Assembly (NCBI RefSeq): GCF_020991375.1
Contig: NZ_JAJLQZ010000004.1
Coordinates: 1 to 64,000 of the forward strand
Length of the DNA stretch: 64,000 nucleotides
Source: Glycomyces amatae
GTDB lineage: Bacteria; Actinomycetota; Actinomycetes; Mycobacteriales; Micromonosporaceae
Direction of reading: 5' to 3'
Both the position numbers and the translations under genes were made by a program. Each line of letters opens with the position of its first letter. The first letter of the stretch is position 1. The notes below the pieces were generated by a model. The model was given only the letters and a program-made list of their open reading frames with translations, was not told the origin of the DNA and ran no database searches. This document shows positions 4,609 through 62,244 of this stretch, piece by piece.

Positions 4609-5796
4609 GTGGGAACCGCCGTCATGCTGTTCACGCGCGACCTGCGCGTCCACGACAACCCGGCGCTGGCCGCGGCCTGCGGGGCCGAGGCGGTCGTGCC
4701 GCTGTACGTGGACGACCCGGCCCGGGCGGCGTCCCCGGTGCGGCGGCGCTTCCTCGCCGAGTCGCTCGCGGACCTGCGCGGGTCGCTGCGCGGCCTCGGC
4801 GGGGACCTGCTGGTGCGCCGCGGCGACACCGTCCGGGAGGTCGTGCGGGCCTGCGCGGACGCCGGCGCGGCGAGCGTGCACTGCGCCGACGACTTCGGGC
4901 GCTTCGAGTCCGGGCTGCGCGAGCGGCTCCGGGAGGCCTGCGATGCGGCGGGCGTCGTGCTGCGGACCGCGCCCGGCGTCACGGCCCTGGCGCCCGGGGC
5001 CGTGCTCCCCAGCACCGGCGGCGACCACTACAAGGTCTTCACCCCGTACTGGAGGGCCTGGTCGCGGGCTCCCCGGCGCCCGGTCGAACCGGCGCCCGAA
5101 CGCGTGCGCCTCCCCGAGGGGGTCACCGGGGGCGACCCCGCCGCGGTCCTCGGGCCCGTGCCCGGGGCGAACCCGGCCTTCCCCGGCGGCGAGGCGGCCG
5201 CGGCCGACCGGCTCGACCAGTGGGCCCCGCGCGCCGAGGACTACCCCGAGCTGAGCGACGACCTCGCCGCCGACGCCACCTCCCGGCTGAGCCCCTACCT
5301 GAGCTTCGGGTGCCTCTCGCCGCGCGTGCTCGCCGCCGACCCGCGCCTGCCCGACGCCTTCGTCCGGCAGCTGTGCTGGCGCGACTTCCACCACCAGGTC
5401 CTGGCGGCCTTCCCCGACCTGGCGCGCGACGCCTACCGCGGCGACGGGGACTGGGCCGAGGACCCCGCCGCGCTCGACGCCTGGCGGCGCGGCGAGACGG
5501 GGATCGCCATCGTGGACGCGGGGATGCGCCAGCTGCTGGCCGAGGCCTGGATGCCCGGCCGCGCCCGCCTCGTCTGCGCCGCGTACCTCACCAAGACCCT
5601 CGGGCTCGACTGGCGGCACGGCGCCGCCTGGTTCGCCGAGCGCCTCGTGGACCTCGACGAGGCCAACAACGCCGGGAACTGGCAGTGGACCGCCGGGACC
5701 GGCAACGACACCAAGCCCTACCGGCGCTTCAGCCACGAGCGGCAGGCCGCCCGGTTCGACCCCGACGGGGCCTACCGGCGGCGCTGGGCCCCGTGA
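4609..5796 (+). CDS. phrB: Deoxyribodipyrimidine photolyase
   Basis: The 395-residue flavoprotein uses blue light to split cyclobutane pyrimidine dimers. The N-terminal alpha/beta domain (about 1-130; LFTRDLRVHDNPAL) would bind the antenna cofactor. The C-terminal FAD domain (about 190-390) has SRLSPYLSFGCLSPR, QLCWRDF, MRQLLAEAWMPGRARL and the signature NAGNWQWTAGTGNDT. It is shorter than the usual ~450-470 residues, and the C-terminal helices after KPYRRFSHERQA look trimmed. The GTG start at 4609 follows GAGGAGG by 8 nt. It converges with, and overlaps by 25 bp, the marR gene on the other strand. Confidence 0.93.
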   Translation: MGTAVMLFTRDLRVHDNPALAAACGAEAVVPLYVDDPARAASPVRRRFLAESLADLRGSLRGLGGDLLVRRGDTVREVVRACADAGAASVHCADDFGRFESGLRERLREACDAAGVVLRTAPGVTALAPGAVLPSTGGDHYKVFTPYWRAWSRAPRRPVEPAPERVRLPEGVTGGDPAAVLGPVPGANPAFPGGEAAAADRLDQWAPRAEDYPELSDDLAADATSRLSPYLSFGCLSPRVLAADPRLPDAFVRQLCWRDFHHQVLAAFPDLARDAYRGDGDWAEDPAALDAWRRGETGIAIVDAGMRQLLAEAWMPGRARLVCAAYLTKTLGLDWRHGAAWFAERLVDLDEANNAGNWQWTAGTGNDTKPYRRFSHERQAARFDPDGAYRRRWAP

Positions 5797-20578: not shown

Positions 20579-22015
20579 CTAGACCGCCATGTCCACGAAG
20601 CGCGAGAGGTGCAGCTGGGCCGCGACGGTGATCGTGTCCGTCGCGCCGTTGCGGTGCTTGGCGACGATGAAGTCGGCCTCGCCCGCGCGCGGCGACTCCT
20701 TGTCGTAGTAGTCCTCGCGGTGCAGCAGGATCACCACGTCCGCGTCCTGCTCCAGCGAACCCGACTCGCGCAGGTCCGACAGCTGCGGGCGCTTGTCGGT
20801 GCGCTGCTCGGGCCCGCGGTTGAGCTGGGCGACCGCGATCACCGGGCACTGCACCTCCTTCGCGAGGAGCTTGAGCCCGCGGGAGATCTCCGAGACCTCC
20901 TGCTGGCGCGACTCGACCTTCTTGGGCGAGGTCATCAGCTGGAGGTAGTCGACCACGATGAGCTTGAGGTCGTGGCGCTGCTTGAGGCGCCGGGCCTTGG
21001 CCCGGATCTCCATCATGGTCATCGACGCGGTGTCGTCCACGAACAGCGGCGCCTCGGAGATGTCGCCCATGCGCTTGGCCAGGCGCGTCCAGTCGTCGTC
21101 GGACAGGTCGCCCGAGCGCAGGACGTGCATCGGCACCCGCGTCTCGGCGCTCAGGAGCCGCATCACGATCTCGAGCTTGCTCATCTCGAGGCTGAACAGC
21201 GCGGCGGCGTGGCGGTGGTGCAGCGAGGCGTGCCGCATGAAGTCCATCGCGGCGGTGGACTTGCCCGCGCCCGGGCGCCCCGCGACGATGATGAGCTGCC
21301 CGGCCTGGAGGCCCGAGAGCAGCCGGTCGAGGTCGGCGAAGCCGGTGGGGATGCCGGTCATGACGCCCTGGTTCGCGCCGATCGCCTCGATCTCGTCCAT
21401 CGCGGGCTGGAGGAGGTCGGACAGGACCGCGAAGTCCTCGCTCTGGCGGTTGTCGGTGACCTCGTAGACGGCCTGCTGGGCGAGGTCGACGAGGTCGTCG
21501 ATGTCGCGGCCGCCCTGGCCGCCGCCGTAGCCGTACTGGACGACCTTGGTGCCGGCCTCGATGAGGCGGCGCAGGATCGCCTTCTCCTTGACGATCTTCG
21601 CGTAGTACCCGGCGTTCGCGGCCGTGGGCACGGCGTTGAGCAGGTCGTGGAGGTACGGGCCGCCGCCGATCTTGCCGAGGTCGCCGGTGTCGGCGAGGGC
21701 CGCGGCGATGGTGACGGCGTCGGCGGGCTCGCCGTTGCCGAACTTCTCGATGACCGCGTCGAAGATCATGCCGTGCGAGGGCTTGTAGAAGTCGCCGGGG
21801 CCGAGGACCTCGATGACGTCGGCGATGGCGTCCTTGCTCATGAGCATGCCGCCGAGGACCGACATCTCGGCCTGGAGGTCCTGGGGCGGGGTCCGCTCGA
21901 AGGTGCGGGCGCCGCCGCCCCCGCCGAAGGGGTCCTCCGGGGGGCTGTCGAAGTAGGAGTTGTTCGCGCCGTTCGCCCCTCGCGAGTAGGCGCCGTCCGT
22001 CGACAAGTCGGTCAT
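20579..22015 (-). CDS. dnaB: Replicative DNA helicase DnaB
   Basis: The 478-residue hexameric 5'-3' helicase has an N-terminal primase-interacting domain (about 30-150; QDLQAEMSVLGGMLMSKDA). A RecA-like motor follows with Walker A AGRPGAGKST, Walker B LKLIVVDYLQLM, and the DnaB motif VIAVAQLNRGPE then SDLRESGSLEQDADV. No intein is present, which is worth noting since actinobacterial dnaB genes often carry one. A Gly-rich linker (PFGGGGGA) precedes the fold. ATG 22015 is preferred because GAGGGGG lies about 9 nt upstream; GTG 22036 is an alternative. It is downstream of a DnaA-box array and separated from rplI by an unrelated membrane gene. Confidence 0.97.
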   Translation of the reverse strand: MTDLSTDGAYSRGANGANNSYFDSPPEDPFGGGGGARTFERTPPQDLQAEMSVLGGMLMSKDAIADVIEVLGPGDFYKPSHGMIFDAVIEKFGNGEPADAVTIAAALADTGDLGKIGGGPYLHDLLNAVPTAANAGYYAKIVKEKAILRRLIEAGTKVVQYGYGGGQGGRDIDDLVDLAQQAVYEVTDNRQSEDFAVLSDLLQPAMDEIEAIGANQGVMTGIPTGFADLDRLLSGLQAGQLIIVAGRPGAGKSTAAMDFMRHASLHHRHAAALFSLEMSKLEIVMRLLSAETRVPMHVLRSGDLSDDDWTRLAKRMGDISEAPLFVDDTASMTMMEIRAKARRLKQRHDLKLIVVDYLQLMTSPKKVESRQQEVSEISRGLKLLAKEVQCPVIAVAQLNRGPEQRTDKRPQLSDLRESGSLEQDADVVILLHREDYYDKESPRAGEADFIVAKHRNGATDTITVAAQLHLSRFVDMAV

Positions 22016-22126
22016 GCCGTCCACCCCCTCGGTCACCGTACGTTCATGGAGAATGTACCGCCCGCATACGACAGAACAGCGGCCTCAATGACGCTATGTC
22101 GCGCCGGGCACGGTTGCAAACGGGCC

Positions 22127-22202
22127 TGTGGACAACCTGTGGACAAGGCTGTGGATAACCTGTGGATAACCGGGTCCGAGCCTGTGGACAACCTGTGGAC
22201 AA
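22127..22202. promoter_or_regulatory. Phased array of six DnaA boxes between dnaB and the 22340 gene
   Basis: TGTGGACAA is at 22127, 22138, 22183 and 22194. TGTGGATAA is at 22150 and 22161. All have the same orientation (TTGTCCACA or TTATCCACA on the minus strand). Start-to-start spacing is 11, 12, 11, 22 and 11 bp, so all sites fall on one face of the helix. A degenerate seventh copy (TGTGGACGG) is at 22259. The array sits about 110-190 bp upstream of the dnaB start. Confidence 0.9.
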
Positions 22203-22277
22203 GAACGTGATTCGGGCTCGGATCAGGGCCGTCAGCAGCGCCGACGCCGTCCACTGCCTGTGGACGGAAATTCGTTC

Positions 22278-22292
22278 GTGCCAACTTGGCAC
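22278..22292. promoter_or_regulatory. Perfect 15-bp palindrome upstream of the 22340 gene
   Basis: GTGCCAA-C-TTGGCAC is a perfect palindrome 48 bp before the ATG at 22340. A TACAG box follows directly. It is a candidate operator; the regulator is unknown. Confidence 0.55.
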
Positions 22293-22339
22293 TACAGTGA
22301 TGGGCGACCCCCGGCACACGTCAGAGGAGAGAACGGCTC

Positions 22340-22729
22340 ATGACCGCTCCCCAGCGCCCCGAGCGCAGGCCCCGGCTCGACCCCGAAGGAGACGACCGCC
22401 CCGGCGAGCGCGCGTTCACGCCGACGCTCCTGGTCACCCTCGCCTGGTACGCGGTGCCCGCGCTGGCCTACCTGGCGTGGGTGCTGTCGCAGGCCCCGGT
22501 GGACGCGAAGTGCGCCGAGACGGGGTGCACGGCGGCGGCGCGGATCGGCACCGCGGTCTCGGGCGGCTGGGCCTGGACGCTGTCGTCGCTGACGGCGAGC
22601 CTGCTGGTGGCGGTGCTGCTGCGGCTGCCGCGGGCCGGGTGGCGCGCGGGCGTGGCCGGCTCGGCCGCGGCGATCCTCGGCGCGGGCCTGGTGACGGTGG
22701 TGCTGCGGACCGCCGGCTGGGTGATCTGA
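22340..22729 (+). CDS. Small three-helix membrane protein, unknown function
   Basis: The 129-residue protein has a charged N-terminus (PERRPRLDPEGDDRPGE) followed by three hydrophobic segments (about 31-50, 70-92, 98-125). The loop after the first helix contains two cysteines (AKCAETGCTAA), which could form a disulfide outside the cell. I do not recognise a named family. The start is supported by AGAGGAGAG about 9 nt upstream. It interrupts the usual rplI-dnaB neighbourhood and is transcribed in the opposite direction, divergent from dnaB across the DnaA boxes. Confidence 0.8.
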   Translation: MTAPQRPERRPRLDPEGDDRPGERAFTPTLLVTLAWYAVPALAYLAWVLSQAPVDAKCAETGCTAAARIGTAVSGGWAWTLSSLTASLLVAVLLRLPRAGWRAGVAGSAAAILGAGLVTVVLRTAGWVI

Positions 22730-22947
22730 GCGCCGGCGCGAAGCGGAGGCACGGGCGCGGCCCCGAAGACGTACGGGCGGCCCCGAGTGCCCGCCCACCC
22801 GTCACCCGCCGCCACCCGAACCGGACTGAAGGCCGCTCGCAGAGAACCCACTGCGCCGCTACCGAATGAAAAAGACCACCCCGTCACACGGGTACGACAC
22901 CGCCTTGTTCCAGGAGAGCGGCAACCGCCCCGACGGGGGCACGGCGA

Positions 22948-22977
22948 AGGCCCGCGACCGGTGACGGTCGCGGGCCT
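22948..22977 (-). terminator. Terminator hairpin of the rpsF-ssb-rpsR-rplI operon
   Basis: A perfect 12-bp stem (AGGCCCGCGACC with GGTCGCGGGCCT) and a 6-nt loop lie 20 bp after the rplI stop. It could also stop transcripts arriving from the plus-strand gene at 22340. Confidence 0.8.
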
Positions 22978-22996
22978 CGTCGCTTGGCGCGGCCTA

Positions 22997-23458
22997 CTAC
23001 TTCTTGCGGCGCTTGGCCGGGGTGACCTGAAGCTTGAACTTCGCGGTCACCTCCGGGTGCAGCTTCACGGAGATGTCGTAGGTGCCGACCGACTTGATCG
23101 CCGAGGCCAGCTCGACGCGGCGGCGGTCGATCTTCGGACCCCCGGCCTCGTCGACGGCCTTGACGACGTCCGCGGCGGTGATCGAACCGAAGAGGCGGTC
23201 CCCGTCGCCGGTGCGGGCGACGATGTGGGCGTCCGTCTGCTTCAGCTGGTCGGCCACCGAGCGGGCCTTGTCCAGGTCGTGGATCTGGCGGGACGCGCGC
23301 GCCCGCTGGATCGCGTCGACTTCCTTCTGACCGCCCTTGGTCCAGGCGATCGCCAGGCCCTGCGGCAGGAGGTAGTTGCGCCCGTAGCCGGGCTTGACCT
23401 CGACCACGTCACCGGCCGAGCCGAGGTTGGGCACCTCATGAGTCAGGATGATCTTCAT
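22997..23458 (-). CDS. rplI: 50S ribosomal protein L9
   Basis: The 153-residue protein binds 23S rRNA through its N-terminal domain (MKIILTHEVPNLGSAGDVVE, then YGRNYLLPQGLA, the L9 signature). A long connecting helix and a C-terminal domain (GDGDRLFGSITAADV) follow, and it ends in a basic KRRKK. Length is typical. It is the last gene of the rpsF operon, 15 bp after rpsR, with a strong hairpin behind it. Confidence 0.98.
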   Translation of the reverse strand: MKIILTHEVPNLGSAGDVVEVKPGYGRNYLLPQGLAIAWTKGGQKEVDAIQRARASRQIHDLDKARSVADQLKQTDAHIVARTGDGDRLFGSITAADVVKAVDEAGGPKIDRRRVELASAIKSVGTYDISVKLHPEVTAKFKLQVTPAKRRKK

Positions 23459-23473
23459 AAGCGCGCTCCTTCC

Positions 23474-23719
23474 TTATCGGGTCTGGCTGGTGTACGGGAG
23501 CAGGGCCATCTCGCGGGCGTTCTTGACGGCCGCGGCGATCTGGCGCTGCTGCTGGGTGGTCACGCCGGTCACTCGGCGGGCACGGATCTTGCCGCGGTCG
23601 GAGATGAACTTCCGCAGCAGCGCCGTGTCCTTGTAGTCGACGTACTCGATACCCTCTTTTTCAAGCGGGTTCGGCTTCTTCTTCGGCTTCCGCAGGGGAG
23701 CCGATTTCGGGTTGGCCAT
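23474..23719 (-). CDS. rpsR: 30S ribosomal protein S18
   Basis: The 81-residue protein binds S6 and 16S rRNA in the platform of the small subunit. The core [19 protein letters not shown] and the [20 protein letters not shown] helix are diagnostic. A basic N-terminus ([15 protein letters not shown]) precedes it. There is no CXXC zinc motif at the N-terminus, so this is the zinc-independent form. It lies between ssb (61 bp) and rplI (15 bp). Confidence 0.98.
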
Positions 23720-23780
23720 GTCTTGCCTTGCCTCTTACTCGAGATCGTTCCGGGCCGTGCTGTTCAAGAACAGTTCCCGG

Positions 23781-24293
23781 TTAGAACGGCGGGTCCTCGT
23801 CGAAGCCGCCCTGGCCCGCTCCGGAGGAGCTGGCCGGCGCTGCCGAGGCCCAAGGGTCGTCGGGCGCGGAACCGCCGGAGTTGCCGCCGCCGCCGCCGAA
23901 GGAACGACCGCCGCCACCGCCGGAACCGCCGCCGGTCTTGTTGAGCTTCGCGGTGGAAAAGCGCAGCGCGGGGCCGACCTCCTCGACGTCCAGCTCGAAG
24001 ACAGTGCGCTTCTCGCCCTCGCGGGTCTCGTAGCTGCGCTGCTTGAGCCTGCCCTGCACGATCACGCGGGTGCCGCGCGACAGGGACTCGGCGACGTTCT
24101 CGGCGTACTGGCGCCAGACGCTGCAGGTGAGGAACAGGGCCTCACCGTCTTTCCACTGGTTCGACTCGCGGTCGAACGTCCGCGGAGTCGATGCGATACG
24201 GAACTTCGCGACGGCGGCACCGGACGGCGTGTAACGCAGTTCGGGGTCGTCGACGAGGTTGCCGATAACCGTGATGACTGTCTCTCCTGCCAT
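23781..24293 (-). CDS. ssb: Single-stranded DNA-binding protein
   Basis: The 170-residue protein has an OB fold at about residues 1-110 ([20 protein letters not shown], then VSRGT-like [20 protein letters not shown]). A Gly-rich flexible linker (about 120-145) and the acidic interaction tip DEDPPF follow. It coats ssDNA and recruits partners through the tip. ATG 24293 is chosen to match the family start; the open frame runs further but has no homology. It lies 38 bp after rpsF. Confidence 0.97.
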
Positions 24294-24331
24294 GACCTGT
24301 TCTCCTAAGGTCTCGCAGTTGCTAGGTCGGG

Positions 24332-24622
24332 TTACCGAAGCTCCGGTCGCAGCACCTTGGTCCGCAGCACCGACTCGCTGAGCCGCAGCTGACGGTCCAT
24401 CTCCGCGACGGGACCGGGCTCGGACTGCAGGTCGACGACGGCGTAGATGCCCTCGTTGCTCTTGTTGATCTCGTAGGCGAGACGGCGCCGGCCCCAGACG
24501 TCGATCTTGTCGACGGCTCCCCCGGCGTCCTTGACGCCCTTCAGGAACTTCTCCAGCGTCGGGCTGACCTGGGCTTCCTCGAGGTTGGGTTCGAGGATGA
24601 CCATCAGTTCGTAATGCCGCAA
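24332..24622 (-). CDS. rpsF: 30S ribosomal protein S6 (TTG start)
   Basis: The 96-residue protein starts (M)[18 protein letters not shown] and contains [20 protein letters not shown] and [14 protein letters not shown], all diagnostic of S6. Homology starts at a TTG codon (24622), and AAAGGAGGTGG lies 6-8 nt before it, an almost perfect Shine-Dalgarno. No ATG or GTG fits. It heads the rpsF-ssb-rpsR-rplI operon. The rare start may tune expression. Confidence 0.96.
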
Positions 24623-24906
24623 GATCGCTCCACCTCCTTTGGTCTCGATCGGCTGCGGTCTCTCCGCAGCAGGAGGAATCACTTGCGCGTGCCGCCCCGG
24701 GACCCGAGCGGGGCTCGGAGCGGACAACCGCGCAATCGTACCTGCTTGCGGGCGGTGCGGCCGCGCCGCGCCACCCGGATGTGACGCTACCGCCCGGGTC
24801 CGACACTCCGGTGTTCGACTCCCGCCCGCCGCGGCGGCGCCCGCGGGCGGCGACTGAGCTCCGCCTCACATCGGGGCCGACCGCGCCCCGCGCTAAGTTG
24901 GAACGC

Positions 24907-62163: not shown

Positions 62164-62214
62164 ACGTCAACTGTCCGTGACATGCCCATTACCCGCAAGA
62201 ATTATTTTTTGGCC

Positions 62215-62244
62215 TGTGGATAACCGAATCGGGCCTGTGGATTA
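62215..62244. promoter_or_regulatory. Two DnaA boxes upstream of dnaE
   Basis: TGTGGATAA (62215-62223, perfect) and TGTGGATTA (62236-62244, one mismatch) are 21 bp apart, two helical turns, in the same orientation. They lie beside an AT-rich stretch (AATTATTTTTT, 62201-62210) between the DUF4192 and dnaE starts. Confidence 0.75.

Follow-up and report, generated by a model that had tools for sequence, protein, structure and literature searches.

The intergenic region upstream of dnaB in Glycomyces amatae contains a compact array of six DnaA boxes in a single orientation, and we propose, with a probability of about 0.6, that this array controls the dnaB promoter from upstream: DnaA would bind the boxes and raise dnaB transcription. 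This kind of array is not private to Glycomyces, shorter versions being found in many related bacteria.

A box scan of the window (the whole analysed stretch of 64,000 nucleotides) confirmed the claim of the earlier note that six exact TGTGGAYAA boxes of the same orientation, with start-to-start spacings of 11, 12, 11, 22, and 11 bp, lie at 22127–22202 (Table 1). The gaps between neighbouring boxes are 2, 3, 2, and 2 bp, plus one gap of 13 bp, and the array occupies six of seven successive register slots. The window has seven exact boxes in total, the seventh being away from the array at 62215, vs. 0.11 expected from dinucleotide shuffles (at least seven in none of 100 shuffles), and the array is the tightest group among the 54 exact boxes of the genome (6.17 Mb, 68 contigs). 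That the boxes line one face of the helix, as had been suggested, holds if the helical repeat is 10.9 or 11.0 bp, when the boxes drift within 53 and 33 degrees, respectively, and does not hold at 10.5 bp per turn, when the drift ranges from 0 to 137 degrees; strict 10.5-bp phasing was hence rejected.

Table 1. Coordinates of the dnaB upstream region and adjacent features in the window.
Feature	Position	Strand	Remarks
dnaB, replicative helicase	20579..22015	-	PF00772, PF03796; ATG at 22015 invariant in the 22-sequence alignment
Putative -10 of dnaB (TAGCGT)	22091..22096	-	17 bp from the -35, within invariant CGACATAGCGTC
Putative -35 of dnaB (TTGCAA)	22114..22119	-	Overlapping GTTTGC (22121-22116) invariant in 22 aligned sequences
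DnaA box 1 (TGTGGACAA)	22127..22135	+	Closest to dnaB; ends 30 bp from putative -10
DnaA box 2 (TGTGGACAA)	22138..22146	+	41 bp from putative -10
DnaA box 3 (TGTGGATAA)	22150..22158	+	53 bp from putative -10
DnaA box 4 (TGTGGATAA)	22161..22169	+	64 bp from putative -10
Vacant slot (GGGTCCGAG)	22172..22180		Between boxes 4 and 5, at the place expected from the 11-bp register; unconserved
DnaA box 5 (TGTGGACAA)	22183..22191	+	86 bp from putative -10
DnaA box 6 (TGTGGACAA)	22194..22202	+	97 bp from putative -10
Two weak box-like sites in inverted orientation (GTCCAC-N5-GTGGAC)	22249..22265		Between array and membrane gene; largely conserved in Glycomyces
15-bp palindrome GTGCCAACTTGGCAC	22278..22292		Precedes membrane gene; conserved in part within Glycomyces
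129-aa hydrophobic (probable membrane) protein	22340..22729	+	Divergent from dnaB; hydrophobic stretches by eye

The genomic surroundings are also as described earlier: the array lies between dnaB, recognized by its Pfam domains, and the divergent gene of the small hydrophobic protein, for which a Pfam search gave no match, and neither dnaA nor dnaN is found here, both residing with oriC on another contig (C1). Past the 129-aa gene come the genes for L9, S18, and S6, with a frame in between that appears ssb-like by eye. The palindrome upstream of the membrane gene is possibly an operator of some regulator; an Rfam search of positions 21500–24800 yielded no match to an RNA element. The oriC, located between dnaN and dnaA, has four exact boxes within 202 bp and 17 boxes within 358 bp if one mismatch is allowed.

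The array is present in all 21 close loci (20 from named Glycomyces and one from a metagenome-assembled genome, MAG), so that the outcome named beforehand as speaking against it, relatives having the same gene order without the boxes, did not occur. These loci carry six (13 loci), five (four loci), or four (four loci) exact boxes; with at most one mismatch, all six boxes are found in 19 of them, the remaining two having five (L053) and four (L069). Lost boxes aside, the spacing between neighbours is constant within 1 bp. In L069, a 23-column gap in the alignment removes two boxes, and the distal boxes, now 74 and 63 bp before the −10, keep the register. The identity of DnaB to the G. amatae protein is 93–98% in 15 of the 20 named Glycomyces loci and 87–92% in the other five.

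The box scan covered 35 out of 62 loci, with 26 distant or partial ones omitted along with L067, which begins inside dnaB and gave no usable start when rescanned later. No box was found within the scanned stretches of L074 and L093, nor, on the first scan, in L090, L072, and L073, but the matches in the latter three begin inside the gene, and L072 and L073 were then redone. In these two loci (from a Micromonosporaceae MAG and Actinocatenispora, respectively), the N-terminal domain of DnaB starts 1.6 and 2.1 kb ahead of the segment that matches best. This exceeds the length needed for the missing residues; an intein in these dnaB genes is likely. A second DnaB-like gene was observed in the G. 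amatae genome itself (G000:C1:515569-515868) and in Glycomyces paridis (L090, whose match runs from residue 199).

In the alignment of 22 sequences, the mean column identity is 96.9% for the boxes (52 out of 54 columns at 90% or higher), 86.4% for the linkers, 66.7% for the vacant slot (none of nine columns at 90% or higher), and 68.7% for the flank at 22203–22247. Besides the boxes, conserved intergenic stretches are 22034–22090 (88.4%) and 22248–22300 (86.0%). Box 1 ends 7 bp short of the conserved putative −35; next come the invariant GTTTGC and then the invariant CGACATAGCGTC, and judging by sequence these two blocks may be read as the −35 TTGCAA, a 17-bp spacer, and the −10 TAGCGT (100% mean identity) of the dnaB promoter. 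In none of the 21 close loci does a box with at most one mismatch overlap the −35 or the −10, the nearest one ending 30 bp before the latter.

Beyond Glycomyces, we considered 112 Actinomycetes genomes from 31 families, taking from each the 1 kb that precedes the DnaB domain (one stretch being shorter because of a contig end); these genomes remained from 118 genomes, including that of G. amatae, upon removal of three genomes without a match, two with the gene at contig ends (G019 and G093), and the G. amatae genome (G000), where the region is in the window itself. At least one exact box occurs in 70 out of 112 genomes, with 113 boxes in total, while the expectation is 0.70 both by shuffles and by the box density of each genome. 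None of the genomes has six exact boxes: 42 lack them altogether, 43 have one, 16 have two, and 11 have three to five. If one mismatch is allowed, 108 genomes have at least one box (16.1 in shuffles) and 98 have at least two (1.6 in shuffles). Pairs of boxes in the same direction 11–12 bp apart were found in 13 out of 112 genomes vs. 0.00 in shuffles. Both sampled genomes of another genus from the family of Glycomyces (G082 and G183) have no exact box. As expected of a DnaA-regulated promoter, several boxes are observed upstream of dnaB beyond chance.

The position of these boxes relative to the promoter was considered using the −10-like hexamer TAnnnT, a loose motif, the promoter itself being a predicted one. 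The distances between this hexamer and boxes oriented like those of the array peak at about 31, 42–43, 53, 64, 74–76, 87, 97, and 107–108 bp. The best period is 10.9–11.0 bp, with R of 0.60–0.67 when one genome is taken per genus (45 out of 63 genera having pairs in the printed run) and 0.66–0.79 when one is taken per family (22 out of 31), both at p = 0.005, the floor of the test; with the period fixed at 10.9 bp, p = 5e-6. Among 64 motifs of the form XYnnnZ, TAnnnT has the highest R, 0.66, the next value being 0.41, whereas by n*R^2 (48.2 for TAnnnT) it is approached or exceeded by TCnnnA (52.6), CCnnnG (44.6), and TGnnnA (39.6). Some control motifs show a degree of periodicity as well: R is 0.27–0.35 for TAnnnA (p from 0.005 to 0.015) and 0.19–0.24 for TCnnnT (p from 0.005 to 0.114). 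In our reading, the periodicity of TAnnnA, TCnnnA, CCnnnG, and TGnnnA reflects the box-to-box spacing, as these motifs can be read inside the box with or without the next base; this reading does not extend to TCnnnT.

Since motifs occurring in the box itself were also periodic, hexamers overlapping box-like sites were removed and the test was rerun, yielding R of 0.67 by genus and 0.71 by family, with 151 out of 202 pairs lying no more than 1.5 bp from a slot, compared with about 27.5% expected. The families differ in this filtered set: f22 (16 out of 31 pairs in slots) and f2 (13 out of 21) fit less well, and the counts are one out of three in f11 and none out of one in f8. Judging by their offsets, five out of eight pairs are off register in two members of family f15 (G167 and G193). 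Boxes of the opposite orientation are periodic at unstable periods of 9.0–11.4 bp (p from 0.005 to 0.035 by genus and from 0.015 to 0.507 by family), and their phasing was rejected for lack of a stable period. In families f16 and f17, an opposite-direction box precedes TAnnnT, with its end exactly 28 bp away, in nine out of nine cases each.

As the period had been found on this discovery set, two hold-out sets were analyzed with the preset period, neither of which contains near-copies of it (at most 13 and 85 shared 24-mers, respectively, out of about 1028). In the first one, comprising 11 loci from named records, ten loci had pairs, 36 in total, with R = 0.83 and p = 1e-5, and the phase was 9.87, compared with 9.70 in the discovery set; upon filtering, 26 out of 29 pairs from eight loci fell in the slots. 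The second one consisted of 20 new genomes, 13 of them from new genera, out of 201 with dnaB, 30 loci (L215–L244) being left out. An exact box is found in 12 of these genomes and pairs in 14, with none in the other six; here R = 0.41, the phase is 9.61, p = 0.008, and 22 out of 33 pairs are in the slots (p = 0.043 and 19 out of 28 pairs upon filtering). Thus, the register is repeated strongly in the first hold-out set and weakly in the second. As the families share ancestry, the phasing points to constraint and should not be taken as so many independent cases. The boxes are seen at a conserved place relative to predicted promoter elements, with a weak signal in the second hold-out set.

The activator reading is in line with three observations: the register with the −10, the absence of boxes over the promoter, and the box block ending just behind the −35; the published mycobacterial data also agree with it. 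According to this model, DnaA would form a head-to-tail oligomer by cooperative binding to the six boxes, in runs of four and two with gaps of 2–3 bp, and the oligomer would end just behind the −35, on the side of RNA polymerase. Plentiful DnaA would then lead to more dnaB transcription, and the helicase supply would track that of the initiator. We infer the binding of DnaA at the array, its activating effect, and the role of the ATP form. The earlier note had proposed a switch linking helicase expression to the level of DnaA-ATP; the link to dnaB gains support by inference from the boxes 7 bp from the −35, the register across many families, and DnaA binding upstream of dnaB in mycobacteria.

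More tentatively, we consider it possible, if somewhat doubtful, that DnaA is an ancestral activator of dnaB across Actinomycetes, acting via a ladder of slots of about 10.9 bp counted from the −10, with different slots filled in different lineages and nearly all of them in Glycomyces. The promoter would then report the length of the DnaA oligomer in a graded way, coupling helicase supply to initiation and, being near oriC, also titrating DnaA. To our knowledge, the matching of helicase supply to initiation has received little attention except in a few models. If the proposal is true, the levels of the initiator and the helicase belong to a single circuit with the early-replicated DnaA sites, and the phased ladder predicts which boxes and spacings matter.

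A rather unlikely alternative is that the array is a titration or datA-like site, whose boxes sequester DnaA (or favour the loss of its ATP form) after being copied early. Re-initiation would thereby be delayed, and dnaB would be affected incidentally. Clusters of boxes near oriC can indeed repress untimely initiation in Bacillus subtilis and Streptomyces coelicolor (PMC4585315), and the array holds six of the 54 exact boxes of the G. amatae genome. In 18 other genomes, dnaB is 23–144 kb from dnaA and hence would be copied early there; these distances were computed by hand for 18 out of 26 genomes, with ring closure assumed where needed, the eight reached via named loci being omitted because of uncertain contig correspondence, and oriC and dnaB of G. 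amatae itself are on different contigs. However, titration needs neither the register with the −10 nor a fixed site beside the promoter, and with no exact box in 42 out of 112 genomes, one or two in 59, and three to five in 11, the site would be a small sink in most of them. The proximity of dnaB to dnaA in other genomes would be compatible with the titration or reset site suggested by the earlier note, but titration does not account for the promoter register. Titration may be a second effect beside activation of dnaB, both functions coexisting.

The register would also suit repression of dnaB, or of both divergent genes, by DnaA bound at the array, forming a negative feedback. DnaA is known to repress dnaA and nrdAB (PMC8203912), and weak box-like sites are also found towards the membrane gene. 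Still, the lack of boxes over the −35 and −10 in all 21 close loci, the nearest one ending 30 bp upstream of the −10, makes repression improbable compared with activation.

It is very improbable that these box-like repeats are sites for another regulator or form a neutral tandem repeat. Sixteen further boxes of the G. amatae genome, counted by eye, belong to a motif that is dispersed over sites other than dnaB, and therefore TGTGGATAA alone is no proof of DnaA; yet boxes are enriched upstream of dnaB in 70 out of 112 genomes, and the boxes of the array are about 97% identical, vs. 86.4% for the linkers and 66.7% for the vacant slot. This conservation of the boxes above the linkers led us to reject a tandem-repeat artefact.

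The dispersed motif has the approximate form CAACC..CACATG..GGCAACA.AAGTT..CNGCC followed by TGTGGATAAC; some copies have another box about 45 bp further on. Its 16 copies (loci L265–L272, L274, L276–L281, and L285) are on contigs C1, C2, C4, C24, C34, C55, and C66, the copy in the window being at 62204–62224; six loci tested gave no Rfam match. The motif accounts for many boxes outside oriC and dnaB. Another group, of five exact and four one-mismatch boxes, was observed in L033 (positions 5289–5444, from G000:C1:313288) within the coding sequence for an AAA_10-domain protein, presumably VirB4/TraC-like, with the opposite strand encoding YPQ repeats.

A second or vestigial replication origin is scarcely credible and was rejected: the dense same-direction boxes with 2–3-bp gaps do resemble building blocks of oriC, but a complete oriC with dnaA and dnaN is present on C1, the AT content in 40-bp windows is at most 0.47 in 21960–22380 vs. 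0.68 at oriC, so that no unwinding region is seen, and the register follows the dnaB promoter.

Control of dnaB by DnaA is known in kind, and we compared the array with the systems described. Our literature search found no report of a six-box array, of its conservation, or of a class-wide promoter register, and the available part of PMC6478999 holds nothing bearing on DnaA control of dnaB; these three features appear to be new. Several boxes outside oriC are also found in the oriC-near clusters of B. subtilis and S. coelicolor and in datA of Escherichia coli (PMC4585315), and the dnaB loci of relatives are likewise near oriC; those sites restrain initiation, whereas the Glycomyces boxes follow the register of the dnaB promoter. 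In the alphaproteobacterium Caulobacter, dnaB belongs to the DnaA regulon, having predicted boxes upstream and DnaA-dependent expression (Hottes 2005, via the review PMC8203912); it thus shares the upstream boxes with the array and differs in being alphaproteobacterial.

Another parallel comes from mycobacteria. The region upstream of dnaB (Rv0057/dnaB) is among five strongly enriched by DnaA of Mycobacterium tuberculosis in vitro, DnaA occupies the homologues of the same five regions, the dnaB site included, in Mycobacterium smegmatis in vivo, and a DnaA mutant shows both weaker binding upstream of dnaB and lower dnaB expression (PMC7738170). This site resembles the array in lying upstream of dnaB and being bound by DnaA there, and differs from it in that the available text of the same paper describes neither a box array nor a promoter register. 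In our sample, each of eight genomes of genus g3, which we take to be mycobacterial, has zero or one exact box, compared with six here. A single box is not bound by DnaA of M. tuberculosis and is bound weakly by that of S. coelicolor (PMC4285127). Finally, double DnaA boxes of E. coli with gaps of 2–3 bp are the arrangement preferred by DnaA in vivo (PMC11317965). The same distance of 2 or 3 bp between neighbours is observed in the array; the E. coli boxes form pairs, whereas those of the array, next to dnaB, come as one run of four and one run of two.
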